64,000 nucleotides of DNA from a virus. Made by a program: the position numbers and the translations under genes. Below are positions 47,377-63,216 of this stretch, one piece after another (positions within the stretch are counted from its first letter, which is position 1; each line of letters starts with the position of its first letter). The stretch covers positions 39,450-103,449 of IMG/VR virus record IMGVR_UViG_3300022752_000032; one strand, given 5' to 3'. The notes beneath the pieces are model-generated. The model was not told the origin of the DNA. It ran no database searches and saw only the letters and a list, made by a program, of their open reading frames with translations.

Positions 47377-47494
47377 GAAGGCAACAATTTCCATAGTTGA
47401 CCTTCAGAAAAAGCGCTGACTTCCTACGCTCACTTTGAGCCCGCTTTGAAATCTACAAACAACTTACGCAGCGGCAAATAGCCAGGCTGCTGTA

Positions 47495-47550
47495 TTTTTT
47501 TACTTTTTGCTATGACCATGCTGTTGTCAGTCCAGATTTACAAACAACTT
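47495..47550 (-). repeat. Composite intergenic repeat, site A
   Basis: Minus strand: AAGTTGTTTG box (5' T of TTGTTT at 47547) and AGCAAAAAGTAAAAAA box (TAGC 5' T at 47512) with 35-base spacing. A third AAGTTGTTTGTA copy is at 47454-47463. It lies after a terminator, between two transcription units. Confidence 0.75.
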
Positions 47551-47597
47551 TTGGATCTGCATACCGCCTAGACGAAAAAAATGTAAAGGTTTTTACA

Positions 47598-47630
47598 ATA
47601 AAAAAACTCCCTGCCGTAAGGCAAGGAGTT
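47598..47630 (-). terminator. Rho-independent terminator
   Basis: AACTCCTTGCC / GGCAGGGAGTT stem followed by TTTTTTTA on the minus strand, after the genes at 47645-48045. Confidence 0.85.
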
Positions 47631-47644
47631 AGTTTGATTTTATG

Positions 47645-47737
47645 TTAGGCAGATTCGCAGTCGTGTCCGTAGGCGTATTCCTCACGAGTCATTGTTTGTG
47701 AGCACTCTACGCACTTTATTGTTAGTAGATTTATCAT
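47645..47737 (-). CDS. 30-aa CxxC...GHxC microprotein
   Basis: MINLLTIKCVECSQTMTREE ... GHDCESA. Zinc-type C-x2-C ... H-x-C. TAATG coupling with 47737-48045. Confidence 0.55.
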   Translation of the reverse strand: MINLLTIKCVECSQTMTREEYAYGHDCESA

Positions 47738-48045
47738 TAGTTCCCCTCGTATTCTTCATGTTCACCCTGTCCTATTAGGATTTCGAAGCCAGCGTTTGGA
47801 TCTATGTGGTTAGTAGTAACCGCTTGAATAAATCTAAGCCCGCAAGAATTTGAATACCAGTTTTGCAAGGTTGTTAGCATTTCTTCAGGTGTGCAATATG
47901 TGCTTCTAATTAGTGGGTCATACTCGTAGCCACGCATTGTTTCTACCTGCTCATCGTCCATTAGCAAGTAAATCTTGTGGCAACTATCCCAAGCGATAGC
48001 CTTAGCATCGCCAACTCTTTCTTTTACTAGGTCGAAGTTCGCCAT
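47737..48045 (-). CDS. Hypothetical protein, 102 aa
   Basis: MANFDLVKERVGDAKAIAWD; two cysteines and helix-rich body. AAAGAGGGGGAAATAAA ribosome site and promoter at 48071-48099. No family recognised; a small regulator or inhibitor is possible. Confidence 0.7.
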   Translation of the reverse strand: MANFDLVKERVGDAKAIAWDSCHKIYLLMDDEQVETMRGYEYDPLIRSTYCTPEEMLTTLQNWYSNSCGLRFIQAVTTNHIDPNAGFEILIGQGEHEEYEGN

Positions 48046-48070
48046 TTTATTTCCCCCTCTTTCAATACAG

Positions 48071-48099
48071 ATACTATCATGTTAATAAGTTGTTGGCAA
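48071..48099 (-). promoter_or_regulatory. TTGCCA-17-TAGTAT promoter
   Basis: TTGCCA (48094-48099), 17-base spacer, TAGTAT (48071-48076). The same hexamers, spacing and downstream CTG occur at 51197-51225. Confidence 0.6.
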
Positions 48100-48141
48100 G
48101 TATGTTGCTCTGGTGTTTCTTCCTAGCAAAAAGTAAAAAAA
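48090..48141 (+). repeat. Composite intergenic repeat, inverted copy
   Basis: Here the pair is on the plus strand: AAGTTGTTGG (TTGTT 5' T at 48090) then TAGCAAAAAGTAAAAAAA (TAGC 5' T at 48124), spacing 34. All other pairs found are on the minus strand. Confidence 0.65.
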
Positions 48142-48182
48142 TATATCTTCAGGTGTCAGTTGAGTCAGATCGAAACAACTTT

Positions 48183-48755
48183 TTAAGATCCGAAGTGCTG
48201 TACCGCAATATTGATCGGCAGCCCTGTGCTTGGATCTAACTTGGCAGCGATAGTTATTGCTTGTCTAATAACATTCTTGGCTGTGCCTAAGGTTTTCTTT
48301 TTGCTGTCTAGGCTTGCCAGCATTGCTCCCATTGCGTATCCACCACCAGAACCTATGGCATATACGCCTGTTTCATCATGTGCCCAAGAATAGTCATCAC
48401 CAATTTCGTAGATAGTTCCATTAACCGCAACCATTACTTGAGAGTCATGCTCTCCATCTTTGCTGTAAGAGTTTTCCTCGAAGCAGTGTTTCATATCTTG
48501 GATAAAGACTGAGGAGATAAACTTGTCTAACTTTGCCCCGTAAAGGTTTGGATTTATGGCAGGTGGCTTAAAAACATGTGTAAGTATGTTAATGGCACGC
48601 ATATCTCCAGCCGCGCCAATTAAGTATGGACCGTTTCTATTTACTTTTCCATTGTCTTTAGGCAGCGTATAGATCTTGCTATTGTCTTCAGTCAGTCTTG
48701 CGTCATACCCTATGGCAGCCCAGTTCTCTCCCTGTATCGCTGCAATAGTTGTCAT
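48183..48755 (-). CDS. Proteasome-beta/HslV-like Ntn peptidase
   Basis: 190 aa. After the initiator Met comes T-T-I (nucleophile Thr1 = residue 2), then Asp17 (GYDARL) and Lys at 32 or 36, and GVYAIGSGGGYAMGA as in HslV/20S beta subunits. HslV-type fold and length. No cognate AAA unfoldase is adjacent, although the MoxR pair lies elsewhere. ATG at 48755 with a weak GGGGAAAAG leader; preceded by an A-rich 16-mer. Confidence 0.85.
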   Translation of the reverse strand: MTTIAAIQGENWAAIGYDARLTEDNSKIYTLPKDNGKVNRNGPYLIGAAGDMRAINILTHVFKPPAINPNLYGAKLDKFISSVFIQDMKHCFEENSYSKDGEHDSQVMVAVNGTIYEIGDDYSWAHDETGVYAIGSGGGYAMGAMLASLDSKKKTLGTAKNVIRQAITIAAKLDPSTGLPINIAVQHFGS

Positions 48756-48787
48756 AGTCTTTTCCCCAATTGTTTTTTACTTTTTGC

Positions 48788-49033
48788 TTAGTCTAAAAAC
48801 CCGTCCCACAAGTCTTCTCTAAGTTTTTCATACTTATCTCCGTGATATCCATTGTTTCTTGCAGAAATATCTTCATCTCTAAGTAGAGAGTCTAGCGAAA
48901 GAACAGCAGTAAAGTCCCTCTCGTCAAACATGATAACAATTTTTGTATCTCCATCAGCGGGATCATCAACAAGGGCGGCAATAAAGGGAACGGCAGAACC
49001 ATTTGAGTGGTAATACTTATCTACAATCTCCAT
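48788..49033 (-). CDS. Hypothetical acidic protein, 81 aa
   Basis: Acidic, beta then helix; MFDERDFTAVLSLDSLL. No family. The stop is directly followed by AAGCAAAAAGTAAAAAA. Confidence 0.65.
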   Translation of the reverse strand: MEIVDKYYHSNGSAVPFIAALVDDPADGDTKIVIMFDERDFTAVLSLDSLLRDEDISARNNGYHGDKYEKLREDLWDGFLD

Positions 49034-49086
49034 GGTTAAAAAATACCCTACTCTCGAAAGGGTGATTTTGTTGGATTAAACACCAA

Positions 49087-49108
49087 ACCCCCCAGATCGG
49101 TGGGGGGT
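49087..49108 (-). terminator. Candidate terminator
   Basis: Perfect ACCCCCCA / TGGGGGGT hairpin with a six-base loop, followed on the minus strand by TTTGGTGTTT. T-run is interrupted. Confidence 0.6.
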
Positions 49109-49227
49109 CGGCGGAGCAAGAAGGGGTGTTTTCTGCTCTCAACTCGGGACGGAAAAGGGGATTAACCGCTACCCAAGGTGAGAATTAGTTTAGCCTGATT
49201 TTTTACTTTTTATTTGCTCAGGTGCTC

Positions 49228-49575
49228 TTAAATCTTATCAACTATGGATATAGGGACTACGGCATTGGCAGAGTAAATCTCCCCCTTCGAGTTTGTTCTA
49301 GCGAACCTACCTTTAGGTTTATCAAAAGTAATAGTGATTTTACTTCTCCTAATAGCAACCACAGTTCCCTCATCTCCTATCAAAGACTTAGTTCCGCAAC
49401 TACTATTTAGAACAATCCTATCTCCAACTACAAAATCCTTTATATCCGCATCTGCCCTCACGATACTTAATCGCTCCTCTATAAGTTTTTTAAGGGGAAC
49501 TAGTTGTTTGTCTAGTTCTCCTCTAGAAACGGCATTACAGGTTTCATCAAACAAGTCTATGGAAGTCTTAATCAT
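49228..49575 (-). CDS. SH3/KOW-like protein, 115 aa
   Basis: The C-terminal half is beta-rich with FVVGDRIVLNSSCGTKSL and EGTVVAIRRSKITITF, like a KOW/SH3 barrel. N-terminal helix. Overlaps the gene upstream by eight bases. Role unknown. Confidence 0.68.
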   Translation of the reverse strand: MIKTSIDLFDETCNAVSRGELDKQLVPLKKLIEERLSIVRADADIKDFVVGDRIVLNSSCGTKSLIGDEGTVVAIRRSKITITFDKPKGRFARTNSKGEIYSANAVVPISIVDKI

Positions 49576-49816
49576 CTTTTATTTTCATCTCCTCTTCTAA
49601 CATCACTTTTAAGATTTCTAATTTTATTATGTGATACCTGCTTCTCTTCTTGTCAAAGTTGTCCGCAATCAAAAATTCTGTGTGATACTTAATCATTTCA
49701 AGTATCCTTTCTTTCTTAGAAAGTTTTCCAAATCTGTCGTATTCGTCTTTAGCAGGTCTTGTTAATTGTGCCTTTGTTTGCGACCTTATTGATATGCTTT
49801 GTTTTGTTTCGCTCAT
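49568..49816 (-). CDS. Helical hypothetical protein, 82 aa
   Basis: Basic, helix-rich: KDEYDRFGKLSKKERILEMI ... LEILKVMLEEEMK. Overlaps both neighbours by a few bases; operon gene of unknown role. Confidence 0.66.
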   Translation of the reverse strand: MSETKQSISIRSQTKAQLTRPAKDEYDRFGKLSKKERILEMIKYHTEFLIADNFDKKRSRYHIIKLEILKVMLEEEMKIKDD

Positions 49817-50034
49817 ACTTCTACCCCTTCTTCATCTACAACCCCAATACTATTAGCAACTGACGCTACATCAAAGCCGTAGTATTCGTTCATGAATACA
49901 GACGCAACACGAACCGCAAAGTCATTATCTACTTCGCCCTCATTTCTTAGTTTCTCATCTAAGACTACAGTAGTCATTAGCGTAAAAAAATCACCAACAA
50001 ACATTACTGTTCGGCTTGGAAGTATGTTATCCAT
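49813..50034 (-). CDS. Hypothetical protein, 73 aa
   Basis: MDNILPSRTVMFVGDFFTLM; acidic C-terminus. Overlaps the 55-aa gene upstream (ATGGATAA). No family recognised. Confidence 0.66.
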   Translation of the reverse strand: MDNILPSRTVMFVGDFFTLMTTVVLDEKLRNEGEVDNDFAVRVASVFMNEYYGFDVASVANSIGVVDEEGVEV

Positions 50035-50194
50035 CTATTCCCTTTTCATAGTCAATCAAAGCCTTGAGTTGTTTCTCAGTTATCACACTAGTTAATCTAC
50101 CAACTAGATACTCAACAGCGTTCTTTCCGTAGTTATCTCTTACCAACTTAGCAAGAGTATCTACTGTGTATTCCAACTCTACTTCTTTAATCAT
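50027..50194 (-). CDS. Small helical protein, 55 aa
   Basis: MIKEVELEYTVDTLAKLVRD ... ITEKQLKALIDYEKGI. Amphipathic helices. Stop overlaps the next start by eight bases. Function unknown. Confidence 0.62.
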   Translation of the reverse strand: MIKEVELEYTVDTLAKLVRDNYGKNAVEYLVGRLTSVITEKQLKALIDYEKGIDG

Positions 50195-50199
50195 AGTTA

Positions 50200-50412
50200 T
50201 TACACCCTTTCCTTAACTGTCTGATAAATCATGTCGTAAGAATTTGTTAGACATGGAATTACAGACTCATACTCGTTAGCAACTTCAGCAAATACTTTAT
50301 CCGAAACCTCAAAGTGTTCGCCAATATAATACTGATAGATAACAGGCGAGTCTAAATTCTCTACCTTCATCAAGTTGTCAATCAACTCTCTAACTGTAAT
50401 GTGCCCAGCCAT
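50200..50412 (-). CDS. Hypothetical protein, 70 aa
   Basis: MAGHITVRELIDNLMKVENL then VIYQYYIGEHFEVSDKVF; resembles small phage proteins with a TVxEL/LI-N-L-x helix. Close to both neighbours. Confidence 0.66.
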   Translation of the reverse strand: MAGHITVRELIDNLMKVENLDSPVIYQYYIGEHFEVSDKVFAEVANEYESVIPCLTNSYDMIYQTVKERV

Positions 50413-50414
50413 GA

Positions 50415-50666
50415 TTACTCCTGCTCTCTTAAATGTTCAGCAATTGTTTCGGGGTCAGCCCCAGCGGTGATAAGCACCTTGCGCCAAAGGTTAGCAACTC
50501 CAATTTTGGTATCCATTAGAAAGAATAATTTATCCATAGAAGTATCCTTTTTATTTTTCCAGCCATCTATATCAGAGCCAAGCATTTCTAATAGCAATGC
50601 CAAACCCATATTTACGAAGCCCGCTTCCTCTTCGTTTAACTTTAGTTCTAATACCTCAGAGTTCAT
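50415..50666 (-). CDS. Hypothetical protein, 83 aa
   Basis: LKLNEEEAGFVNMGLALLLE ... DPETIAEHLREQE. Acidic and helical. Ribosome site AAAGGGGAAAC before ATG 50666; promoter at 50693-50721. Confidence 0.66.
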   Translation of the reverse strand: MNSEVLELKLNEEEAGFVNMGLALLLEMLGSDIDGWKNKKDTSMDKLFFLMDTKIGVANLWRKVLITAGADPETIAEHLREQE

Positions 50667-50692
50667 TTGTTTCCCCTTTCCCTGATATCCGT

Positions 50693-50721
50693 ATTATTAC
50701 ATACTTTAGTCAATAAGTCAA
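50693..50721 (-). promoter_or_regulatory. TTGACT-17-AATAAT promoter
   Basis: TTGACT (50716-50721), 17-base spacer ending TATGT, AATAAT (50693-50698). The TATGxAATAAT element recurs at 56.3 and 57.9 kb. Confidence 0.6.
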
Positions 50722-50733
50722 ACTACCTAATAA

Positions 50734-51189
50734 CTATATATTCCATTGACCCATCATTTTTCTAGATAATTCAATTCCGTCGTTGTCTAATTCCCAACAG
50801 CCCCAACTAATTGGCTCTGCTTGAGAATCAAATGTTAAATACAACTCATAATTTAAGTTATCGCCCAACCATAAACAAGCCTTATCCATCCATTCAGAGG
50901 CTTCATCTTCGTATCTTGCGGGAAGAGTTTCATCAAATTGTCTAGCGGTTAAATCAATTATCACTCCGCTTAATCCATAACTGTATAAAAATCTTTCATT
51001 ACCCTCTTGACCTATATCGGTGTAGATAGCCCAATGCTCTCTTTTTCCATAATTTGCACCAGTAATTCTAATTAAACCTTGATTATGTTTTTTTGCATAA
51101 AGTTTTGATTGCCACAAGCATTGACCAAACGCTTTAACCGGGTCGGCTATGCCTCTCGACATCAATCTTGGTGTTTTATTTATTTTCAT
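50734..51189 (-). CDS. Hypothetical protein, 151 aa, probably leaderless
   Basis: Start chosen at ATG 51189 (MKINKTPRLMSRG) because a promoter at 51197-51225 would place transcription start at this codon; an ATG at 51210 lies inside the spacer. The protein has a WGCWELDNDGIELSRKMMG end and a KREHWAIYTDIGQE segment and looks like an actinophage conserved protein. Function unknown. Confidence 0.68.
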   Translation of the reverse strand: MKINKTPRLMSRGIADPVKAFGQCLWQSKLYAKKHNQGLIRITGANYGKREHWAIYTDIGQEGNERFLYSYGLSGVIIDLTARQFDETLPARYEDEASEWMDKACLWLGDNLNYELYLTFDSQAEPISWGCWELDNDGIELSRKMMGQWNI

Positions 51190-51196
51190 AAAGCAG

Positions 51197-51225
51197 ATAC
51201 TAACAGACATGTCCTACTTTGGCAA
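51197..51225 (-). promoter_or_regulatory. Leaderless-type TTGCCA-17-TAGTAT promoter
   Basis: TTGCCA (51220-51225), spacer 17, TAGTAT (51197-51202), then seven bases to ATG 51189. Confidence 0.62.
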
Positions 51226-51263
51226 GTTGTTCTTAGTCGTGTCGCACTGGGCATCTTGGTAAA

Positions 51264-51279
51264 TTTTTACTTTTTGCTA
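51264..51279 (-). repeat. A-rich 16-mer copy
   Basis: TAGCAAAAAGTAAAAAT on the minus strand, just after the terminator at 51292-51316. A plus-strand AAGTTGTTC box lies 35 bases away on the other side. Confidence 0.6.
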
Positions 51280-51291
51280 TTACCGCATAAA

Positions 51292-51316
51292 GAAAAACCC
51301 CGCACTCAAGCGGGGC
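51292..51316 (-). terminator. Rho-independent terminator
   Basis: GCCCCGC / GCGGGGT stem with a six-base loop and TTTTTC, after the TPR-like gene. Confidence 0.82.
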
Positions 51317-51329
51317 TTCTCCTTTTATT

Positions 51330-51794
51330 TTAGATTTCTTTTTCTGCGTGTTTCTTTGTGTCGGCAATTACTTTACTGTGGATAGCACTTCTCATCTCGG
51401 AGAAAGCACTTGCTTCCCAAGCGGTTTCATAAACACGAACTAAAAGTTTTGTTAGTGGGTGTTTATCATCTATCTCTAACGCTTTATTTAGGTTATCTAA
51501 AGCAAGTTCGCTTTCCTCGTTCTCATATAAAAACGCTGAATAAATTGCGTATAGGTCAAGAAGTTCTGAACTATCCACTTCACTTATCATTTTTTTACAT
51601 AGAGAAATCATAAAAGGTAGTCCAAAGTCTTTCGGCATACCCATAAAGTAATCACGAAGTAGTAAATTTTTACTTAATGCTTTACTAGATATTTCTAACG
51701 CTTCTTTGTCTAACTCATTTGTTTCCATAAAGTTAGTGGCAAGAAAGTTAAAAGATTTTACTGCTTCACCTATTGTTATTGTCTTTGTAGTCAT
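51330..51794 (-). CDS. TPR-like helical protein, 154 aa
   Basis: The C-terminal half has a TPR-like block (LLDLYAIYSAFLYENEESEL then ALDNLNKALEIDDKHPL). The N-terminal half is helical. May be a protein-interaction or chaperone-type subunit. Family assignment uncertain. It ends at a strong terminator and begins just before another. Confidence 0.6.
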   Translation of the reverse strand: MTTKTITIGEAVKSFNFLATNFMETNELDKEALEISSKALSKNLLLRDYFMGMPKDFGLPFMISLCKKMISEVDSSELLDLYAIYSAFLYENEESELALDNLNKALEIDDKHPLTKLLVRVYETAWEASAFSEMRSAIHSKVIADTKKHAEKEI

Positions 51795-51815
51795 TTTTCC
51801 CCTTGTTGTTGGGAA

Positions 51816-51838
51816 ACCCCCGCAATTAAGCGGGGGCT
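51816..51838. terminator. Bidirectional terminator
   Basis: CCCCCGC / GCGGGGG stem with T-rich flanks on both strands, between two genes of the same direction. Confidence 0.78.
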
Positions 51839-51850
51839 TCTTTTTAATTA

Positions 51851-52255
51851 TTACCGAGTTGTTTTTAGAATTGTGTTGGTGCTTTGTGAAGTGAAAGCCT
51901 CAACAAGTGGTAGAAGTTCAGGATTTTCCTGTAAAAACTTTTCTTTATCAAAGTTCGTGCGAGTTTGTGTTCCTACTTTGATAACGGAAACTCCGTCAAT
52001 AGTGCCTTCCTCTGCGACACCTATCCATTTATCGCCTACCTTCTTGTATCCAAGAAGTGAGTAGATTTCGGATTGTAGTTCTTTGTATTGGGCTTCTAAG
52101 GTTGCCTTGTCTGCCTTGTTTGCCTCGAACTTCGCTAGAAGTTCTTTAGCATTAGTTTCGTCAAGAGCGATTACTTTTGTATCGTTCTTGATAGTTGTAG
52201 TTGTAGAGCGAATTGCTACTACTGTATCTACAACACCTTTGACTTTATTAGTCAT
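51851..52255 (-). CDS. Phage accessory protein with QTRTNFD block
   Basis: 134 aa. Helical N-terminal half; then GTIDGVSVIKVGTQTRTNFD and an LLPLVEAFTSQSTN end. This block is like the C-terminal segment seen next to phage recombination nucleases (YqaJ-type neighbourhoods). Start with AAAGGAAAA. Promoter at 52310-52338. Confidence 0.65.
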   Translation of the reverse strand: MTNKVKGVVDTVVAIRSTTTTIKNDTKVIALDETNAKELLAKFEANKADKATLEAQYKELQSEIYSLLGYKKVGDKWIGVAEEGTIDGVSVIKVGTQTRTNFDKEKFLQENPELLPLVEAFTSQSTNTILKTTR

Positions 52256-52397: not shown

Positions 52398-52450
52398 TTT
52401 TTTTACTTTTTGCTATGTTAGAGCCGCCAGGGCCGCAGACTTCCAAACAA
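52398..52450 (-). repeat. Composite intergenic repeat, site B
   Basis: TTGTTTGG box (5' T 52450) and TAGCAAAAAGTAAAAAAA (5' T 52415), 35 bases apart, after a GC-rich spacer. Confidence 0.75.
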
Positions 52451-52455
52451 CTTTT

Positions 52456-52508: not shown

Positions 52509-52883
52509 TTATCTATACATGCTACTCATTAGATAGGCGGTAGGTATAACTTTTTTGTCATAGCCCAGCCAGTAAGCGACTTGCTCGTCAGTAAGACCTA
52601 AAGTCTCACCCTCAGCATCAACGCTTCCAGTAATAATTACATTACCTAGAATTGGATTACTCGCATTGAAAGCATCTGAGTAGATAGCCGAAGCAATCAT
52701 GTTTAACTCCAGACCTTCAGCGATGCCATTTTCATTGCACCATAAGTCCGCATCTTTTAAACTAACACACTCAATCATGCCACCTACGGCATCACTAAGT
52801 AGTTGATAAGACTTTTGAAACTCAAACTCAACGACGGACTTGTGTCCTTCTGTTGAAATGATTACTGCTTTTTGCTTTTCCAT
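52509..52883 (-). CDS. DUF3846-like protein
   Basis: 124 aa. SYQLLSDAVGGMIECVSLKD, GLELNMIASAI and a GNVIITGSVDAEGETLGLT tail match the DUF3846 layout common in actinophages. Role unknown. AAAAGGGGAAAA ribosome site before ATG 52883. Confidence 0.75.
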   Translation of the reverse strand: MEKQKAVIISTEGHKSVVEFEFQKSYQLLSDAVGGMIECVSLKDADLWCNENGIAEGLELNMIASAIYSDAFNASNPILGNVIITGSVDAEGETLGLTDEQVAYWLGYDKKVIPTAYLMSSMYR

Positions 52884-52955: not shown

Positions 52956-52970
52956 ATTTTTACTTTTTGC
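52956..52970 (-). repeat. A-rich 16-mer copy
   Basis: GCAAAAAGTAAAAAT on the minus strand, a few bases after the stop of 52973-53110. Confidence 0.6.
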
Positions 52971-52972
52971 TT

Positions 52973-53345: not shown

Positions 53346-53879
53346 TTAAAAGTGAAAGTCTACTGGAACAAGATATTGCTTTTCAGGATTTTTGTCAAGC
53401 CTATCCTTAAAGTATTGCAAGTTAGCCGTATGCTCTTGTAAGTCATATACGCCAGTATCAGAACACCAATCATTATTTAGTATCTTGGAAATTCTTTGTA
53501 GTCGCCACATATTCATACCACTATCGTCAAATCTTTGTTCGTAAGGATTATATTCAGATATTGATTTCTCTACATCAAACCCAATTCCTTTTTTCATTTC
53601 GTCCCAAAGGTTTTTGGCTTCAGTTATTCGGTAAGAAACAAACTCTTTAATAATGTCATCTGCTAAAACTTTATTCTCGGCGTAGCAAAGAACATCTCGG
53701 TTCTCTTCCCAGCCTAGAAACAATCCAGACCAGCGTCCAGCCAAACCCTCACCTAAACCTCCGTGCCAATCAGACCAAGCAGGGTAAGGAGTTTCCGCAT
53801 GGGTAATCGTGCCTCTTACATAACTCAGAGCCTCCTCTGCGCTATCAGCCTCTACTAACATAATCTGACATGTATGCAT
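53346..53879 (-). CDS. Hypothetical protein, 177 aa
   Basis: N-terminus ADSAEEALSYVRGTI, then SDWHGGLGEGLAGRWSGLFL; the C-terminal part is helical. Similar small proteins occur in environmental actinophages. The ATG follows GAAAGGGGAAAAAGTAAAAA, so the A-rich motif lies between the ribosome site and start. Promoter at 53911-53939. Confidence 0.68.
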   Translation of the reverse strand: MHTCQIMLVEADSAEEALSYVRGTITHAETPYPAWSDWHGGLGEGLAGRWSGLFLGWEENRDVLCYAENKVLADDIIKEFVSYRITEAKNLWDEMKKGIGFDVEKSISEYNPYEQRFDDSGMNMWRLQRISKILNNDWCSDTGVYDLQEHTANLQYFKDRLDKNPEKQYLVPVDFHF

Positions 53880-53910
53880 TTTTTACTTTTTCCCCTTTCG
53901 CTTTAAATAT

Positions 53911-53939
53911 ATTATTTCATAATAGTCTTTATTTGTCAA
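53911..53939 (-). promoter_or_regulatory. TTGACA-17-AATAAT promoter
   Basis: TTGACA (53934-53939), 17-base spacer, AATAAT (53911-53916); overlaps the 3' end of 53929-54381. Confidence 0.62.
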
Positions 53940-54381
53940 GCATGTCAGGCATGCCAAGAAGTGTCTCCGCATTGAAATACTCCGCATAGACATACTCTTT
54001 TGCCATATCAATAGCCTCGTTCAACATGTGACTTGGCATATCAAAGTGTTCTCCGTAGCAGTAAAGGTCAAACCAAGAGTTCATATCCATAACTAGGCTC
54101 TCGTCCTCAGTTGCTTTATGAAACTTAGTGTCCGTATCAAAGCCGCCTAATATTAAATCCGCACCGCCCGTGTAATACTGATCTGTGCTTCGGTTATATA
54201 TTTTTGTATCTCCGTCGCAATAAATATCAACGGCAAAGCCTTCATATAAAACTGTGGCTATATGACCTTCACCAGCATAGAAACAAGCATCAAATCTTGT
54301 GATGCCATAAGTTTTAAGTCCAGCCGAAGGCAACATGTGAGATGCGTATTTAATAACAAACTTGCTTTCATCTCTTTCCAT
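53929..54381 (-). CDS. Hypothetical protein, 150 aa
   Basis: Start chosen at ATG 54381 (MERDESKFVI), where the A-rich 16-mer ends two bases upstream; no standard ribosome site. GITRFDACFYAGEGHIATVL and a C-terminal helix. No family recognised. Confidence 0.65.
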   Translation of the reverse strand: MERDESKFVIKYASHMLPSAGLKTYGITRFDACFYAGEGHIATVLYEGFAVDIYCDGDTKIYNRSTDQYYTGGADLILGGFDTDTKFHKATEDESLVMDMNSWFDLYCYGEHFDMPSHMLNEAIDMAKEYVYAEYFNAETLLGMPDMLDK

Positions 54382-54382
54382 A

Positions 54383-54398
54383 TTTTTTACTTTTTGCT
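54383..54398 (-). repeat. A-rich 16-mer copy, start-associated
   Basis: GCAAAAAGTAAAAAAT directly before ATG 54381, replacing a ribosome site. Confidence 0.65.
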
Positions 54399-56369: not shown

Positions 56370-57422
56370 TTAGATTTTGGCAGGCTTTGCTTCTACCCCA
56401 TACGCTCGGGTTAGAACATCTGCGACTACTGCCCTATCGTCAGTTGGGGCTGACGCAATCATGTTGGCAATAGCAAACTCAGTTCCGAAAGTTGTTGCTA
56501 TATCACGAAAGGCGAGAAGTTCTCGCATTTGTGGCGACCAACTTATTCTTTCTTTATTCAGAACTTTGCGATACAAGTTTTGTGCGCAAGTTACCATTTG
56601 TGTTGGCACTCCTAAACTGCGAGCCAAGTTCCAATCAGTTGTCATTTCTGCTTGGACAACAAAGCGAGATAGTAATGCTTCGCTAAGTCTTACACCCGGA
56701 GCCTTTGGATTAGTTGCGGCAACTACATAAAAATCAGGGTGAGATTTTACTGTTCCTCTTTCAGGATTAGCAGTAATTGTTATCTCTCTTTTTCCGTCCA
56801 TAAGATTGTAAATAACTGAAAGAACCTTAGGGTCAATCAGACCAATCTCATCTATGAAATAAACTTCCCCATTTTCTGCTGACTTAACTAGGTCGCCATC
56901 AACCCACTCAAAGTTTCCACTTGGAGTTTGGACATAAGAACCAATTAGGTCGGCAACTTCTACATCACCATTTCCAAGTAGTGTGCGAACACCTTCGCCA
57001 AAAGAAGCCTCAACCAGCGCAGTTTTACCTGTTCCGGGAACTCCATAAAGCATGGCGAACATTGGTTGTCCAACACCAGTTAGAACTGATTGCTTTGTTG
57101 CTTCTCTTGCTTTGCGTAAAACTTCTACATCTTTGTTTTGACCCCATATACGAGCATGGTAGGCAGAACCATTAGGACGCAAGTAAATACTTTCGCCACC
57201 CAAAGCCTCAACACTCACGAGAGCGTCTGCCTTTGTTTTGCGTGCTTTTCTGTCAGAGCCAATCGCTCTCTCAACATAGCGTCCTTGCGGAAGCACATTG
57301 GTAGATAATTGCTTTGACGCATTTTCATTTACTCCTTGCGTTGCTACATCTATAATCATTTCCCAATAAGTCGGTGAAAGATTAGGACTTAGTTCTTTGT
57401 ATTTCTCTTTTAGAGTAGTCAT
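56370..57422 (-). CDS. MoxR-type AAA+ ATPase
   Basis: 350 aa. Walker A GVPGTGKT (127-134), Walker B VYFIDEIG (187-194), sensor-1 ATNP and an arginine-finger SRFV segment. Family member of MoxR, which usually works with VWA proteins as a chaperone or chelatase-type machine. The VWA partner follows downstream. Confidence 0.9.
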   Translation of the reverse strand: MTTLKEKYKELSPNLSPTYWEMIIDVATQGVNENASKQLSTNVLPQGRYVERAIGSDRKARKTKADALVSVEALGGESIYLRPNGSAYHARIWGQNKDVEVLRKAREATKQSVLTGVGQPMFAMLYGVPGTGKTALVEASFGEGVRTLLGNGDVEVADLIGSYVQTPSGNFEWVDGDLVKSAENGEVYFIDEIGLIDPKVLSVIYNLMDGKREITITANPERGTVKSHPDFYVVAATNPKAPGVRLSEALLSRFVVQAEMTTDWNLARSLGVPTQMVTCAQNLYRKVLNKERISWSPQMRELLAFRDIATTFGTEFAIANMIASAPTDDRAVVADVLTRAYGVEAKPAKI

Positions 57423-58341: not shown

Positions 58342-58372
58342 TTTATTTCCCCTTTTCTTTAGGCTTGATAGA

Positions 58373-58401: not shown

Positions 58402-59046
58402 TACCAGTTCTTGTTTGGCGTGGATTTCTATTGGCTTTAGATTTTCAGGACAATCTTGATAAAGGTCGCTAAAATCGCCATCAAAGTTTTCACATCTCCA
58501 GCAATCGCCATAATTGGCTTCTATTTCTTCGGCATGAGTTTCTGGTATGTCCCACTCTTTAATAACTTCAGCAGTAGAACCATTAAAAACAATCTCTCCA
58601 CCCCAACCCTGTTCTTCACGATATTCCAAGTTAATGTTTAGATTAGGATTTTGTTGTGCCAGTTTTTCTATTACTGGAGTTGGTGGCGACCAAGCAGTAT
58701 CAAACTTATAGCGAAGACATGTTTCATGTTCTTCTGTAAGTTCTACATCACGAGCATCCCACTTAGTTCCCCACTCACGAACATTAAAGTTATACCAGTT
58801 GTATTCAGTATCGCCTGTTTTTTCTCCATTGGCGTATCCATGAACAGCGTGATACTCATCTAACTTATCTTCTGGTGGTGGAAGTATGTTCATAAAAGAA
58901 AAGATAGGTTCTCTATCTACTTCTTCATTTATCTCATCTGCGCTTTTATATTTTGTTTTGACAGTTGCGCCAACCTGCGCTTTTAATTTTGCTATGTCTT
59001 CTTTAGAACCTTCTACTGTTAAATAGTTATATACCCAGTTAGGCAT
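58384..59046 (-). CDS. DUF1281/YubB-like ferredoxin-fold protein
   Basis: 220 aa. Starts MPNWVYNYLTVEG and continues with FSFMNILPPPEDKL, the MPNW family recognisable in phages and plasmids (DUF1281-like, ferredoxin-fold). Function unknown. Overlaps the gene upstream by eight bases. Confidence 0.78.
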   Translation of the reverse strand: MPNWVYNYLTVEGSKEDIAKLKAQVGATVKTKYKSADEINEEVDREPIFSFMNILPPPEDKLDEYHAVHGYANGEKTGDTEYNWYNFNVREWGTKWDARDVELTEEHETCLRYKFDTAWSPPTPVIEKLAQQNPNLNINLEYREEQGWGGEIVFNGSTAEVIKEWDIPETHAEEIEANYGDCWRCENFDGDFSDLYQDCPENLKPIEIHAKQELVLTKEK

Positions 59047-59305
59047 TTTTCCTCCCTAATAAATTTTCACGAAACTCAGGTAAAGTAAAATCAGGAAGTC
59101 CAAATAAAAATCCGCCATCATTACCTTCAGGGTCTTTAGAAACTTCCATCTCTATAATTTCCCCTGTTGAGAGTTTTACTAGAAACTGTGGAAAACCAGT
59201 TCCACCAAACTCTTCAGGAACAGTGCCAAGAAAACGAATAATCTTTGCCCCATTTAGAGCAGAGTAATATCCTTCGTTCCAGCGTTCTTGTATATCGTCT
59301 TTCAT
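59039..59305 (-). CDS. Hypothetical protein, 88 aa
   Basis: MKDDIQERWNEGYYSALNGA; beta-rich end. AAGGGGGAAAT ribosome site before ATG 59305; first gene under the consensus promoter at 59395-59423. Confidence 0.68.
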   Translation of the reverse strand: MKDDIQERWNEGYYSALNGAKIIRFLGTVPEEFGGTGFPQFLVKLSTGEIIEMEVSKDPEGNDGGFLFGLPDFTLPEFRENLLGRKNA

Positions 59306-59394
59306 ATTTCCCCCTTATTATTTTGTAGTCCGTGTTCGCAAGTAGCGGACTAACCCACCCTCACAAATCGCTCATATAAGCGGTGCGAAACGAC

Positions 59395-59423
59395 ATCATA
59401 TAAGAACCGCATCTTTTTGTCAA
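59395..59423 (-). promoter_or_regulatory. Strong TTGACA-17-TATGAT promoter
   Basis: TTGACA (59418-59423), 17-base spacer, TATGAT (59395-59400). Drives the block of genes from 59305 leftward; leader about 85 nt with a hairpin. Confidence 0.78.
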
Positions 59424-59514
59424 ACACCCTTGCCACTCGTTCAGATGACAAACGCTGGAATAGCACCACATCACAATAACTTCGGCATCTGCTCAGTTAA
59501 ATTAGCAGCGGCAA

Positions 59515-59530
59515 TTTTTTACTTTTTGCT
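59515..59530 (-). repeat. A-rich 16-mer copy
   Basis: AGCAAAAAGTAAAAAA, 31 bases downstream (minus sense) of the next copy. Confidence 0.65.
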
Positions 59531-59545
59531 TGCCCGCTGAGCCTG

Positions 59546-59598
59546 TTTTTTACTTTTTGCTAAGGAGTCTTCCAACTTGCGGAGTAGTGTATGAACAA
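59546..59598 (-). repeat. Composite intergenic repeat, site C
   Basis: TTGTTC box (5' T 59598) and TAGCAAAAAGTAAAAAA (5' T 59562), spacing 36. Confidence 0.75.
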
Positions 59599-59654
59599 CT
59601 TTTATAGATGCATTTTACATTTTTTTTGTCTAGGAAGAATGGGGGGTCTTTTTG

Positions 59655-59712
59655 AAAATACAAAAGGCGTGCCTTTGCCGCATTTCTATACGGGCTTAAA
59701 AGACACGCCTAA
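59655..59712 (-). terminator. Terminator after 59727-60113
   Basis: Long stem GGCGTG-CTTT-GCC / GGC-AAAG-CACGCC with bulges, then TTTTGTATTTTC. Confidence 0.7.
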
Positions 59713-59726
59713 GTAAGTTGAGAGTA

Positions 59727-60113
59727 TTACACAGTTGCTCTAGTTTTCCAACCCTCGCCAGTTATTTTTATATTGAATACCGCTTCAAAGGCGGTAGCAA
59801 CAAAGTCCGTTATATCTACCCACTTATCCGTTTCGCCCCAGAGCGAGCCAGCATTAGGGATATTAGGTAGATCCGCATCCGTTGTGTAATCACCAAGCAC
59901 TACAACCCTGTCGCCAGCCCAGCGACCTGAGATGCCTGTTTCGGGTAAATCTCCCCCGCCTCGGTTTGGAGAAGTCATGGTTAAAATATACTGAGCATCT
60001 GCTAGTGAAGCAGTTCCCCCGATATGTTCCCATTGCTTTAATCCCATGCCGAGCCCGTGTGGTGTTACAACTTCTTTTTTGTCTAGGTTTACTAGAACAT
60101 GATATTGACCCAT
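59727..60113 (-). CDS. Conserved phage protein, MGQYHVLVNLDK family
   Basis: 128 aa. Starts MGQYHVLVNLDKKEVVTPHG then GLGMGLKQWEH and SGRWAGDRVVVLGDY. A family seen in many actinophages; unknown function. AAAAGGGGCAATAAT before ATG 60113. Confidence 0.75.
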   Translation of the reverse strand: MGQYHVLVNLDKKEVVTPHGLGMGLKQWEHIGGTASLADAQYILTMTSPNRGGGDLPETGISGRWAGDRVVVLGDYTTDADLPNIPNAGSLWGETDKWVDITDFVATAFEAVFNIKITGEGWKTRATV

Positions 60114-60117
60114 TTTA

Positions 60118-60273
60118 TTATTGCCCCTTTTCTGTCGTAGAAACTACATCAAAGTTTGAATATATTTCATCTATAGAGTTCTCTAAAGAATCTATAAATA
60201 GGCTTAGTTGATTGTCATCTAACTTAGCGACCATGTCTTGTGTAATGGTATGTTGCCAAATTGCTTGACTCAT
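60118..60273 (-). CDS. Small acidic protein, 51 aa
   Basis: MSQAIWQHTITQDMVAKLDD ... STTEKGQ. Helical. ATG 60273 follows GAGGAGATTAAGTA. Unknown. Confidence 0.6.
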   Translation of the reverse strand: MSQAIWQHTITQDMVAKLDDNQLSLFIDSLENSIDEIYSNFDVVSTTEKGQ

Positions 60274-60276
60274 TAC

Positions 60277-60408
60277 TTAATCTCCTCTAATTTCAATTGC
60301 TTCAATATAGGCTTCTAACTCCTCATTAAACATTTGATCACAATTAAAGCAAGTTCTAGCCTTTGTAGATAATCGATAACCGCATTCACAAATTACTGTT
60401 TGACCCAT
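60277..60408 (-). CDS. 43-aa zinc-ribbon protein
   Basis: MGQTVICECGYRLSTKARTC then FNCDQMFNEE. C-x-C ... C-x2-C. Start overlaps the stop of the gene upstream by one base (TAATG). Confidence 0.6.
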   Translation of the reverse strand: MGQTVICECGYRLSTKARTCFNCDQMFNEELEAYIEAIEIRGD

Positions 60409-60584
60409 TACTTAATCTCCTCTAGTGAGATTTGTAAGTTTGATGTTGAGTATTCCTCATCATCTCCCTCACTTGTAATAGGTTCTTCAATTTGTGGTGC
60501 TACATGCCCTATTAAATTATCTTGCTCGTCAGATGAAAGTTCTTTATCTGTCTCGAAAGAAATCAGCATTTGATACTTAGCCAT
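60408..60584 (-). CDS. Small acidic protein, 58 aa
   Basis: MAKYQMLISFETDKELSSDE ... NLQISLEEIK. AAAGGGGTAGCCAA before ATG 60584. First gene under the operator-bearing promoter at 60611-60638. Unknown. Confidence 0.62.
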   Translation of the reverse strand: MAKYQMLISFETDKELSSDEQDNLIGHVAPQIEEPITSEGDDEEYSTSNLQISLEEIK

Positions 60585-60610
60585 TTGGCTACCCCTTTCT
60601 AGTTATCTTT

Positions 60611-60638
60611 ATCTTAACAGTTTTTAACTGTTTGTCAA
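60611..60638 (-). promoter_or_regulatory. Promoter with palindrome operator in spacer
   Basis: TTGACA (60633-60638), 16-base spacer, TAAGAT (60611-60616). The spacer is occupied by AACAGTTTTTAACTGTT (60616-60632), a perfect 7-bp arm palindrome, which looks like a repressor site. It overlaps the 3' end of the subtilase gene. Confidence 0.75.
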
Positions 60639-61547
60639 GTTAAACTGCTTAGGATAAAAGAGTGTCGTAGTTTTGTAAGCATTGACTAGAGAAGCATTAA
60701 CGCTAGCCAAAACCGCAGTTAGGTTTTCACCCGCAGATAATCTTTTAGTTAGGTAAGTAGCAAAAGCCACAGTTGAGTTAGAAGTTCCAAAAGAAACCTT
60801 TTTATTATCTGAAAGATCAGATGTTGTGTATTTACCATTTACAAAATAATCAACATCAGAGTTGTAGTTAGAAATAGCCATAATTGGATACACCCAACCT
60901 GACACCTCTTTCATGGCATACCTATCCTCAGTTGCGCCCACCGCAATCGCTTGTGGGATACAAGCAGGGTAGTCAATCTTGGTAGAGCCACCATTACCAA
61001 CCGCAATAGCAACAGGTATTCCTGAAGCCATTAAGTTAGTAATTTGTGTTTGTAGGTTTCCAACTATCGGACACTCAGTTGATTTGTAAGAGTTACCTAG
61101 CGAAATAGAAACCGCACCAACATTTAGTCGTGCCTTATTTGCTTCCACATAATCTAACGCCCAAGAAATTGCTTTGGCTGTGTAAGGATTAGGAACGCCC
61201 TTAGCAGTCATACCAGCAACTCGGATAGAAACAATTTTTACATTTGGATCAACCGCAACCGCAACTGAAGCCATTTGAGTTCCATGACTAAATGAACCAG
61301 CAGTTGTCATAGCAGGAGTAATCTTTGATGCACCAGCACCAATCATTTGTGAGAAGCCATTTGGACATCTATTAAACTCAACGAAGCATGCCTCATCTAT
61401 GACCGCACTTTTAGCCCAAGCCAAATCTGTATTTATGCCTGAGTCAATAATTACTAAAGTTTTTTCTCCAACTGCACTCGCAGTTTGAGTTGGAAGTAGA
61501 GTTGCTGATATCGCAACTACTATAAGTATAATTTTATTTTTTGTCAT
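60624..61547 (-). CDS. Secreted subtilisin-like serine protease
   Basis: 307 aa. N-terminal signal peptide (residues 1-25, ends TASA). Catalytic Asp35 (VIIDSGI), His88 (SHGTQM), oxyanion Asn185 (AVGNGG), Ser256 (FGTSNSTVAFA). Triad complete; the usual Pro after the Ser motif is Val. Length near a compact S8. ATG shares bases with the stop of the zinc microprotein (ATGA). A secreted S8 protease is unusual for a phage. Confidence 0.88.
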   Translation of the reverse strand: MTKNKIILIVVAISATLLPTQTASAVGEKTLVIIDSGINTDLAWAKSAVIDEACFVEFNRCPNGFSQMIGAGASKITPAMTTAGSFSHGTQMASVAVAVDPNVKIVSIRVAGMTAKGVPNPYTAKAISWALDYVEANKARLNVGAVSISLGNSYKSTECPIVGNLQTQITNLMASGIPVAIAVGNGGSTKIDYPACIPQAIAVGATEDRYAMKEVSGWVYPIMAISNYNSDVDYFVNGKYTTSDLSDNKKVSFGTSNSTVAFATYLTKRLSAGENLTAVLASVNASLVNAYKTTTLFYPKQFNLTNS

Positions 61548-61723
61548 TTGCTTAATACCAATCTTTGTCCTAGTCCTAATCCCAGCCCCTTGCCAAGACT
61601 TTCAAAACAAGACTGACACATATTTGCCCACGCTGAGCCAAGTATTGTCTGTCCATCATAATTTGCAACCTGTCCGCAAAAATCGCAGTTAGGTAAATTA
61701 GCCACCCTTACTTCCTTAGACAT
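61544..61723 (-). CDS. 59-aa zinc-ribbon protein
   Basis: CDFCGQ ... CQSCFE: two CxxC pairs. Overlaps the subtilase start by four bases and the next gene upstream by eight. Confidence 0.62.
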   Translation of the reverse strand: MSKEVRVANLPNCDFCGQVANYDGQTILGSAWANMCQSCFESLGKGLGLGLGQRLVLSK

Positions 61724-62033
61724 TTAGTTCCCTTGCGCTATCTGCCATTGCTTTGGCATCAACTAGATTATTCCAGTCTTCATCTCTAATGTCAAGTAAG
61801 AATTCCATTGGTTCAGAACTTCCACCAACACTAGCCAGCACAGACGCTCTGTGATGAATGATGTCTTTGTTCGTATGACCTTTGTGGTCTTGGACAACCA
61901 TTTCTAAAACATGGATGCCATTAGTACTGAAGTTGTGCGACTTCTCGGGATACTGATTGAAGTTGAGCATTTTTGCGGTATCGATCAGCCTTTTTAGAGT
62001 TTTCGAGTTTACTGCTTTGTATTCGTTTGTCAT
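61716..62033 (-). CDS. Hypothetical protein, 105 aa, leaderless
   Basis: MTNEYKAVNSKTLKRLIDTA ... AMADSARELNV. Helical. TATAAT lies six bases before the ATG, so the mRNA is probably leaderless. Confidence 0.72.
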   Translation of the reverse strand: MTNEYKAVNSKTLKRLIDTAKMLNFNQYPEKSHNFSTNGIHVLEMVVQDHKGHTNKDIIHHRASVLASVGGSSEPMEFLLDIRDEDWNNLVDAKAMADSARELNV

Positions 62034-62039
62034 AGAAAT

Positions 62040-62069
62040 ATTATAATCACACGATCAAACGTTTGTCAA
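62040..62069 (-). promoter_or_regulatory. Leaderless TTGACA-18-TATAAT promoter
   Basis: TTGACA (62064-62069), 18-base spacer containing palindrome CAAACGTTTG, TATAAT (62040-62045), six bases to ATG 62033. Confidence 0.78.
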
Positions 62070-62070
62070 A

Positions 62071-62289
62071 TCAATCTTCGATACGGCATTTCTCGTGTTC
62101 ATTCATACAACAGACACAATAGTTCTCATGACCATCATGGGTGCAACATCTATCAGGATCTGCTTTATCTAAACGATTATTTATCCAGCGATTTAATGTG
62201 TCAGCGATTCTATGATCCGACTCGGACGGGATTAATAGTTGTTTCTGTATCTGATTCACTTTGTACGCTATGTACCCAAGAAGTAGCAT
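62071..62289 (-). CDS. Small protein with C-terminal Cys/His cluster
   Basis: About 72 aa from the ATG at 62289 (GGGGA nine bases upstream); it overlaps whiB by 80 bases in another frame. The C-terminus CCTHDGHENYCVCCMNEHEK may bind metal. Start uncertain; a downstream GTG is also possible. Confidence 0.55.
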   Translation of the reverse strand: MLLLGYIAYKVNQIQKQLLIPSESDHRIADTLNRWINNRLDKADPDRCCTHDGHENYCVCCMNEHEKCRIED

Positions 62290-62623
62290 CCGCTTTAATC
62301 CCCGCTTTCTCTGCTCTGTCAATTGATCTCTTAAACTTAACAATAACCATCCGTTCGTCTTCTGTCAAGCCACCCCACACACCGAAGTTCTCGGGCACCG
62401 CTAATGCGTGCTCTAAGCACTCCGTCTTGATAGGGCATGCCGTACATATTTTTTTAGCGGCACTCTCCCGTGCCTGCTTCTCAACACCGCGAAGCATGTC
62501 ATCATTAAAGAACACCGTCGCGTCCACGCCGTTACTTTTGCACAGCGCTTTATCTTGCCAGGACCAGTTACGGGCAGACGGCACTAATGCATCGTTCGGA
62601 TTGAAGACGGGTTCCATAGGCAT
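62210..62623 (-). CDS. whiB: WhiB-family Fe-S transcription factor
   Basis: 137 aa from ATG 62623, or 135 from ATG 62617. Fe-S cysteines: ALC, CTACPIKTEC and GVWGG, the WhiB signature. WhiB-like proteins occur only in actinobacteria and their phages. The promoter at 62630-62659 places transcription at the ATG, so it is likely leaderless. Confidence 0.93.
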   Translation of the reverse strand: MPMEPVFNPNDALVPSARNWSWQDKALCKSNGVDATVFFNDDMLRGVEKQARESAAKKICTACPIKTECLEHALAVPENFGVWGGLTEDERMVIVKFKRSIDRAEKAGIKADATSWVHSVQSESDTETTINPVRVGS

Positions 62624-62629
62624 GCCGTT

Positions 62630-62659
62630 ATGGTAGCAATGGCTCAAGCCGTTTGTCAA
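62630..62659 (-). promoter_or_regulatory. Leaderless whiB promoter
   Basis: TTGACA (62654-62659), 18-base spacer, TACCAT (62630-62635), then six bases to ATG 62623. Confidence 0.68.
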
Positions 62660-62719
62660 CAACCGCTGTACCAAGCCGCTTGCCGATTAAATAACATCTA
62701 AACAATTTTCTGTTTTTAA

Positions 62720-62741
62720 CTTTTGGCAGTGCTGCCAAAAG
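62720..62741. repeat. 10-bp-arm inverted repeat
   Basis: CTTTTGGCAG / CTGCCAAAAG around TG. No T-run on the minus strand. Operator or hairpin. Confidence 0.65.
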
Positions 62742-62843
62742 CTACCCTACCAGTACTGTCAAGCCGTCGAGCCCGTTGAGCTAACCAGGTAGAGATGTAA
62801 ACAACTTCTGTAGATTGTCCTCACAGCTGCTGTACCAGGCCGC

Positions 62844-62895
62844 TTTTTTACTTTTTGCTATCCAGAGCTCCGCCGAGCTAGAAAGATGAGAACAA
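62844..62895 (-). repeat. Composite intergenic repeat, site D
   Basis: TTGTTC box (5' T 62895) and TAGCAAAAAGTAAAAAA (5' T 62860), spacing 35. Confidence 0.75.
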
Positions 62896-63062
62896 TTTCT
62901 TGATGTGCGGCTTCTATTTAATTTTCTGAGCGTGGAGCTCCAGGAAGAACCCGCATTTGCACACTACGAACAACTTTAGTTTCTACAGCCGCAGATCTCC
63001 AGACCGTAGCATCTATACACAGTTAGAATTAAGGCTGTACGAATCCGTTGAATCCCTGACGC

Positions 63063-63173
63063 TTAGACATCCTCTTCCGTTTGCGTTTTACATCTATGAG
63101 CACCGTCTAACTCTGCACTCTCGTACGACTCCTTACAGAAGTAGCACACCGTCACTATCCGTTCCATGTCCAC
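63063..63173 (-). CDS. 36-aa CxxC...HxxC microprotein
   Basis: VDMERIVTVCYFCKES ... GAHRCKTQ; GTG at 63173 with GGAGG upstream. Same pattern as 47645-47737. Confidence 0.6.
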   Translation of the reverse strand: MDMERIVTVCYFCKESYESAELDGAHRCKTQTEEDV

Positions 63174-63200
63174 AGCGTTACCTCCTATACCCCATGCCGC

Positions 63201-63216
63201 TTTTTACTTTTTGCTC
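63201..63216 (-). repeat. A-rich 16-mer copy
   Basis: AGCAAAAAGTAAAAAG; supplies SKK-stop of the gene at 63204-63386. Confidence 0.65.

Follow-up and report, generated by a model that had tools for sequence, protein, structure and literature searches.

What is a short A-rich sequence doing at so many gene boundaries at one end of an uncultivated phage genome, and what is the second box that often lies near it? Intergenic repeats are known in many actinophages and their role is mostly unexplained. The window analysed here is a stretch of 64,000 nucleotides (nts), bases 39,450-103,449 of the 103,449-bp virus record IMGVR_UViG_3300022752_000032, i.e. the last 64 kb of that contig, which is from an actinophage of an uncultivated group in IMG/VR. 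Its portal protein is 77% identical, across 84% of the portal length, to that of Actinomycetia phage DSL-LC01 (a lake-water phage assembly, according to PMC10611076) and 60–64% identical to those of the Microbacterium phages Pumpernickel and Zooman. The right end of the contig consists of small genes, almost all called on the minus strand by a simple caller of our own, and termed early from their gene content. A first-pass annotation had described in this region an A-rich 16-mer (here the A-box) paired with a second box (here box 2). The answer that we favour, on balance, is that the two boxes form double-stranded DNA sites, an operator or enhancer array, controlling early transcription units.

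An A-rich box and its partner

The A-box consensus is TAGCAAAAAGTAAAAA, asymmetric and A-rich, with the core AAAAAGTAAA. The window has 25 matches to AGCAAAAAGTAAAAAA with up to three mismatches, where dinucleotide shuffles expect 4.25 and the largest shuffle gave 10; five of the 25 are at 14–39 kb, outside the early region, to be read against that chance total of 4.25 per 64 kb. Seventeen A-boxes with the core lie at 42–64 kb of the window (its last 22 kb), 16 of them on the minus strand and the sole plus-strand copy at 48125-48140. The exact A-box has nine copies in the 103,449-bp contig, none of them outside the final 20.1 kb (the early region); a reversed-pattern control gave no match in the entire contig. 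Perfect inverted arms of at least 7 bp across the A-box are in mild excess (9/125, letter shuffles giving 3.9; the mean arm is 4.29 against 4.04), and CCTGGC..GCCAGG arms visible by eye at a few A-boxes are a weak signal.

Relatives were gathered both through the ATPase gene 56370-57422 and through the 16-mer. Among the best 80 of 87 ATPase loci, A-boxes are present in relatives with ATPase identity of 70–100%, and below about 65% there are none apart from single core matches. From 25 loci of this clade, some of which overlap one another, 228 A-boxes were grouped by flank similarity into 126 non-orthologous sites; the flanks were compared ungapped and some orthologues are possibly still counted apart. 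Since the core was set by the search pattern, the information content of the middle of the box is not independent evidence. Outside the core, TAG-C is preferred 5′ of it, with TAG there in 60 of the 126 clusters.

The strongest 8-mer in the flanks is AAGTTGTT, found at 55 of 125 sites where first-order shuffles lead one to expect 2.3; other enriched words are pieces of promoters (TTGACA-like) and of terminators (GGGGGTTT). From 111 instances the box 2 consensus is T-N4-AAGTTGTTTGTAGTT. As the instances were picked by likeness to AAGTTGTTTGTAGTT, only the T at −5 is independent of selection, and GTTTGTA and TTGTAGT pieces are enriched in the flanks even without that selection. The two boxes are linked by distance. 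Across seven contigs AAGTTRTT lies 34–50 bp from 42 of 112 intergenic A-boxes, against 5.1 for random intergenic points (standard deviation 2.2; the highest value in 400 random sets was 13), and in the region of the window alone the figure is 7 of 15 against 0.80. At more than a third of A-box sites TnnnnAAGTTGTTTGTAGTT stands about 43 bp (four helical turns) off, to one side or to both, and its orientation may be either; a strict count gives box 2 at 34–50 bp in 48 of 125.

The distance peaks at 37–48 bp for any side or orientation. Around 166 non-redundant clade sites there are 148 flanking boxes at 25–62 bp, and a lenient count, which has no control of its own, puts box 2 on both sides of 45, on one side of 58 and on neither side of 63. 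In the 45 two-flank sites so scored, which have the fullest arrangement of box 2 - A-box - box 2, mean distances are 46 and 43 bp and the orientations of the two flanking boxes (F, forward; R, reverse) are FF in 21, FR in 9, RF in 8 and RR in 7.

The five pairs reported by the first-pass annotation are in place, with centre-to-centre distances of 43 (47496), 42 (48125), 43 (52399), 44 (59546) and 43 bp (62844), and its spacing of 34–36, counted between edges, is consistent with these 42–44 bp. To call the spacing 'fixed' is too strong outside the window: it is narrow, with 104 of the 148 flanking boxes of the clade sites at 36–48 bp. The pairing itself is real; six flanking boxes at 42–48 bp had been missed (Table 1), and these show that box 2 may be on either side and in either orientation. 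Altogether the early region has 11 AAGTTRTT-type boxes with centres 42–48 bp from an A-box; they serve 8 of its 17 A-boxes (one partner is intragenic), three of which are flanked on each side at that distance. The multi-component, mostly intergenic element that had been proposed is genuine and larger than was stated.

Conservation and genomic position

At junctions with orthologous neighbours in divergent groups, presence of the A-box agrees in 127 of 146 pairwise comparisons (both 66, neither 61, discordant 10 and 9, i.e. 19), which share genomes and so are not independent. The first-pass annotation had asked for presence at the same sites in close relatives, and this conservation is borne out. 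The lone A-box at 48773-48788 belongs to a cluster of 11 sites across the 25 partly overlapping loci. As had been noticed, one A-box forms a start codon, at 45510: the first letters of the 66-amino-acid gene 45310-45510 are ATGGCAAAAAGTAAAAAA. Six other clade orthologues of this gene keep AAAAAGTAAA in their first codons, even with a GTG or TTG start; in the eight listed orthologues of other lineages the gene opens otherwise and lacks it. There may be a protein-level cause for the conserved MAKSKK; the protein has helix-turn-helix (HTH) matches below Pfam cut-offs.

A called start lies within −3 to +2 nts of the box end at 17 of the 126 non-orthologous sites and within 20 nts at 27, while 12 sites are inside called same-strand genes and one is inside an opposite-strand gene. 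Promoters and terminators were predicted by consensus. With junctions limited to those of 60 bp or longer, terminator predictions fall in 19 of 96 that have an A-box and in 2 of 70 that lack one (p = 8e-4). For promoters the counts are 50 of 96 and 30 of 70, so promoters as such are not strongly enriched; their placement is asymmetric. On the downstream side, 45 of 132 intergenic A-boxes have a −35 no more than 150 bp off (34%; random intergenic points 20%); over the same distance on the upstream side 6 do (5%; random points 19%). With non-redundant A-boxes alone the counts are 32/97 and 4/97. For the promoter-proximal box 2, a −35 follows in the next 120 bp in 16 of 27 cases, against 17% of random intergenic points, and the box itself overlaps a predicted promoter in 3 of 27 (random points 6.8%). 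The few overlaps speak for insulation or an action from upstream rather than for simple occlusion.

The usual place of a unit is after a terminator or stop codon and ahead of a predicted sigma-70-type promoter. Relative to the main gene direction, 68 of 77 lone A-boxes and 32 of 48 with box 2 are sense, 25 of 125 running against it; some of the sense bias among lone copies may reflect that they double as stop and start codons. The sites look like two classes, one of lone A-boxes where a stop meets a start and one of box 2 units in longer gaps.

Explanations weighed

The first-pass annotation left open a protein or an RNA site. Six folds of five units are no better than shuffles (z −0.72 to +1.07), Rfam has no match for the element, and both boxes occur in both orientations, all of which favours a double-stranded DNA site; a structured RNA or riboswitch is rejected on the first two of these. 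In the operator or enhancer array that we favour, a phage-encoded DNA-binding protein would recognise the A-box and a second protein, or a second domain, box 2, the two cooperating across about four DNA turns upstream of early promoters. The bound complex might bend or loop the DNA upstream of the promoter, the outcome being switching of the downstream early operon or its insulation against read-through, and those lone A-boxes that stand at stop/start junctions would serve the same protein as weaker sites, of a roadblock kind. The element looks like a phage-wide switch or boundary marker of the early genes.

Two promoter readings were rejected. Against the A-box as core promoter, no −10 is seen by eye at a constant distance downstream of it. 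Box 2, which is found to either side of the A-box and in either orientation, with no single spacing or order, does not suit the promoter of a phage sigma factor. Eleven records, several of them incomplete (as is the window's contig), were scanned for integrase, recombinase and sigma factor; sigma-70 region 4 matches are above cut-off in three, and in the window's contig below cut-off only.

Several points weigh against the operator or enhancer array. The 63 of 166 sites without box 2 lack it even under the lenient count, the spacing is spread over about 10 bp and helical phasing is not clear, and for 87 of 132 intergenic A-boxes the 150 bp that follow contain no predicted −35. The 27 of 126 A-boxes near starts may have a translational role. 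Neither of the two candidate HTH binders follows the distribution of the A-box: the 42353-42853 protein is also present in lineages without it, and the double-HTH family A2 (L219:3651-4271 and relatives) extends beyond the A-box phages, while the window's own contig, which is incomplete, gave no member of it.

The 42353-42853 protein has two HTH-like parts, and its C-terminal recognition helix is nearly the same in A-box and other lineages. Family A2 is present in seven of seven tested A-box records besides the window's and, in other lineages, strongly in five records and weakly in two. Models of the two have helices in HTH-like order, with predicted local distance difference test (pLDDT) values of 76.5 and 81.2; Foldseek returned nothing below E 0.001 for either, nor was there a convincing Pfam, PHROG or PDB match. 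A serine recombinase, likewise rejected as binder, was not found in 6 of the 11 records, several of which are incomplete. [A2 is on the strand opposite the 42353-42853 orthologue in G003, G004, G005, G016 and G017. In Pumpernickel an HTH protein, gene 76, has terminase genes on either side, a hint of a link to packaging that would bear on the 42353-42853 protein if the two are homologous.]

Stoperators and start-associated sequences had been suggested as the nearest analogues, and the likeness is borne out. The nearest described cases are the start-associated sequences and extended start-associated sequences (SAS/ESAS) and the repeats of clusters EC, EF, EG and EI, together with the stoperators; functions, stoperators excepted, are given as unknown or proposed (PMC3203893, PMC7302621, PMC12699233, PMC11373665, PMC9283540). 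In cluster K mycobacteriophages and Microbacterium cluster EF phages the SAS/ESAS is likewise a short, conserved, asymmetric box in 10–19 copies, near starts, at times overlapping the upstream stop and mostly in a single orientation (PMC3203893, PMC7302621). In cluster K it is confined to the non-structural half and about half of the copies have a second repeat (PMC3203893); the A-box matches the restriction to non-structural genes in all nine exact copies. However, the SAS, GGGATAGGAGCCC in K or GGGAAAGGACCCC in EF, is at the ribosome site (PMC3203893, PMC7302621), a 13-bp Shine-Dalgarno-like sequence described in K as usually 3–9 nts before the start, whereas the A-box is A-rich and in most copies not at a called start (27 of 126 sites within 20 nts). 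The K ESAS is a 17-bp inverted repeat directly upstream with a putative SigA-like promoter (PMC11373665). Long A-box arms in no more than mild excess (9/125) and box 2/promoter overlaps in 3/27 do not match this. The partner of the A-box differs too, being a box of its own at about 43 bp that may flank it on one side, whichever it be, or on both, with predicted promoters mostly outside.

Cluster A mycobacteriophage stoperators are likewise many asymmetric sites in short intergenic spaces, mostly along transcription (PMC9283540), but in the element here one third of box 2 units are reversed and there is a second flanking box. Microbacterium cluster EC (18-bp) and EI (30-bp) repeats are also in small intergenic regions with function unknown, the EC repeats being asymmetric and similarly oriented and EI being without identified repressor or integrase; the EC repeats differ in a consensus unrelated by eye, in lying about 21–30 bp upstream of starts, and in that no partner box is mentioned in the part of the source available (PMC7302621). 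The element, then, resembles stoperators and SAS/ESAS without having their tested defining features, and it is not shown to be a stoperator. The family had been thought undescribed, and no account of the A-box/box 2 element was recognised among the open-licence PMC papers that the searches returned, one of the searches being for the sequence letters.

A stoperator system, in which an immunity-type repressor monomer on the asymmetric A-box halts transcription genome-wide with box 2 as an accessory, is nevertheless the rival with most to recommend it, unlikely as we hold it to be: the site is of about 15 bp, asymmetric, in many copies, in short gaps and overlaps stop and start codons, and its orientation follows transcription in 68 of 77 lone sites. 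The stoperator consensus varies between lineages, and the A-box sequence is specific to its lineage. The related DSL-LC01 is called lysogenic by BACPHLIP (PMC10611076) and has a 'recombinase family protein'. However, 16 of the 48 units with box 2 are antisense, whereas stoperators stop working if reversed (PMC9283540); no tyrosine integrase was found in the 11 records, several incomplete, and the small serine recombinase in five of them is absent from the window's incomplete contig; and 39 of about 120 called contig proteins gave no convincing immunity repressor match, weak HTH-type matches aside. A translation signal, i.e. an A-rich start-associated sequence at stop/start junctions with box 2 an unrelated promoter motif, seems improbable. 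It would account for the sites that merge with a called start codon (17/126) or are within 20 nts of one (27/126) and for the TAG at the 5′ end in nearly half of the clusters, but 99 of the 126 sites are not within 20 nts upstream of a called start, the A-box has no Shine-Dalgarno core, terminator-to-promoter and opposite-strand sites lie outside the downstream mRNA leader, and the A-box is linked to box 2 by distance.

The long, box-rich gap upstream of the WhiB gene might be an origin or centromere, the other copies being sites for the same replication or partition protein. The window and four relatives have clusters of box 2 and A-box in a long gap there, at the same end of the early region, but the units are scattered over 20 kb at many junctions, upstream of predicted promoters, and GC skew keeps its sign from 56 to 64 kb save for one near-zero bin, which leaves this reading very unlikely. 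Hardly to be credited either is that the boxes are hot spots of early gene exchange, marking recombination or gene-cassette boundaries. BLAST alignments among relatives frequently stop at A-boxes. Gene 47737-48045, which two A-boxes enclose in the window, sits elsewhere, also beside A-boxes, in a relative about 85% identical in DNA (L130, 15894-16168). Alignments ending at a conserved box are expected in any case, however, and junctions with an A-box have no clear surplus of breaks, the proportion broken with and without it being 0.52 vs 0.60 for gaps of up to 30, 0.48 vs 0.67 for 31–100 and 0.72 vs 0.66 above 100. As for chance, or an artefact of the composition of A-rich intergenic DNA, the bare 16-mer matches at least 119 viral stretches, only 12 of them with DNA similarity to the window, so most single matches elsewhere are probably chance. 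For the A-box/box 2 pair chance is already refuted, by the random-point test, junction conservation, 0 control matches and an exact gapped pair search of IMG/VR that found 52 stretches in 33 contigs, close relatives among them; as an account of the element it is next to impossible. GTDB genomes have no gapped pair AAGTTGTTTGTAG-N18-34-GCAAAAAGTAAAA, which uses a longer form of box 2.

Sites in the window and repeats of other lineages

Table 1. A-box and box 2 sites in the window, by position. A dagger (†) marks the six flanking boxes missed by the first-pass annotation.
Feature	Position	Strand	Parts	Context
A-box, weak, 3 mismatches	43026-43041	−		173 nt upstream of gene 42353-42853
A-box, intragenic	43930-43945	−	flanked by AAGTTGTT at 43 bp (43891-43898†, intragenic) and at 59 bp	in called gene 43663-44151; flanking copies coding as well, possibly chance
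A-box	45493-45508	−		codons 1-6 of 66-aa gene 45310-45510 (MAKSKK)
A-box variant, 2 mismatches	45672-45687	−		contains TAA, overlaps ATG
Three-part unit	47458-47550	−	box 2 47543-47550, A-box 47496-47511, box 2 47458-47465†, all minus	terminator-like hairpin upstream, promoter-like TTGACA-17-TAATCT downstream, both by eye
Three-part unit	48087-48181	+	box 2 48087-48094 (+), A-box 48125-48140 (+), box 2 48174-48181† (−)	
A-box, lone	48773-48788	−		overlaps stop of 48788-49033; 18 nt ahead of start of HslV-like gene 48183-48755
A-box variant, lone, 2 mismatches	49199-49214	−		
Two-part unit	51224-51278	−	A-box 51263-51278 (−), box 2 51224-51231† (+)	just after terminator-like hairpin; pair missed in first pass
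Two-part unit	52399-52453	−	A-box 52399-52414, box 2 52446-52453	preceded by terminator-like hairpin, followed by promoter-like TTGACT-17-TATTGT
A-box, lone	52956-52971	−		upstream of promoter-like TTGACT-16-TATTAT of gene 52509-52883
A-box variant	53879-53894	−		joined to GGGG ribosome-site-like sequence
A-box, lone	54383-54398	−		2 nt ahead of called start, gene 53929-54381
Double unit	59475-59601	−	box 2 59594-59601, A-boxes 59546-59561 and 59515-59530, box 2 (AAGTTATT) 59475-59482†	
Three-part unit	62800-62898	−	box 2 variant AAATTGTT 62891-62898, A-box 62844-62859, box 2 62800-62807†	long gap upstream of WhiB gene 62210-62674; extra box 2 62969-62976
A-box, lone	63200-63215	−		

Below about 65% ATPase identity many lineages have a directional intergenic repeat of their own, and some loci have none. 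Some of these repeats are promoter-like, with TATAAT at the promoter position of the VWA gene, and others are not. The repeats of distant relatives (CCTGATATAATTATCC, CTAGGGATTGTATAAT, CCAGAGTTTATATAAT and, in DSL-LC01, TTCTAAAGATGTTATA) share with the A-box their placement after a stop or terminator and their single orientation; unlike it, the promoter-like ones contain a −10 hexamer, occupy the promoter position and have no excess of box 2. In Pumpernickel there is no A-box core, nor any 11-mer with at least five copies, in 77.5 of 186 kb (terminal repeat counted twice).

Box 2 itself recurs in one further group, that of L145, where a central box ATTTTTTAGGGG has AAGTTRTT at 34–50 bp at 7 of its 17 sites, against an expectation of 1.13 (0 of 500 permutations). 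In L149, L140, L158, L199, L144, L142, L188, L176, L162 and DSL-LC01 zero to two sites each have box 2 at the same distance, with no significant excess; for L149 a conserved geometry had at first been entertained (5 near against 2 far) and was dropped when stricter de-duplication gave 2/18 with 0.95 expected. One might tentatively imagine a regulatory 'code', in which the frame, with AAGTTRTT about 43 bp away, is constant and the central box is swapped by lineage, each lineage having a private regulator of its early units; we regard this as possible but doubtful. The case for such a frame comes from two groups, the A-box clade and L145, the only ones in which box 2 is supported. Such a code, doubtful in the same measure, would parallel by analogy the immunity specificity of temperate phages, its carriers being actinophages in whose records no tyrosine integrase was found. 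The measurable geometry of the element (two kinds of box, about 43 bp, both sides), together with its turnover between lineages, provides a defined DNA target for an early-gene regulator, and offers a way of testing lineage-private regulators in a large uncultivated phage group.

L176, L188, L162 and DSL-LC01 (L209) have 10–17 copies of a one-piece promoter-like repeat with a TATAAT-type −10 and, by eye, no −35; the conserved upstream halves are CCTGA, GGATTG, CAGAGTT and CTAAAGATG. In DSL-LC01 (L209, 1-50000; e.g. 24792, 32497, 35356) the repeat is flanked by inverted arms, which co-vary in some copies (GATTCTA..TAGAATC, AGATCTA..TAGATCT). At eight places in L157 promoter-like repeats of the form CCGTAAAA - ~17–20 bp - ATACAATAAAGACA-like are mostly after hairpin-like GC-rich stretches. 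In the window, early promoter-like sequences at 47350-47378 and about 45059-45086 have a common spacer word, GTCAGGAAGGTG, between −35 and −10, and TGTCAGG words are near promoter-like sequences of L144 too. At the GC-richer end of the window, 62640-63820, AAGCCGYTTG-like words (AAGCCGCTTGTCAA and similar) recur in both coding and non-coding sequence.

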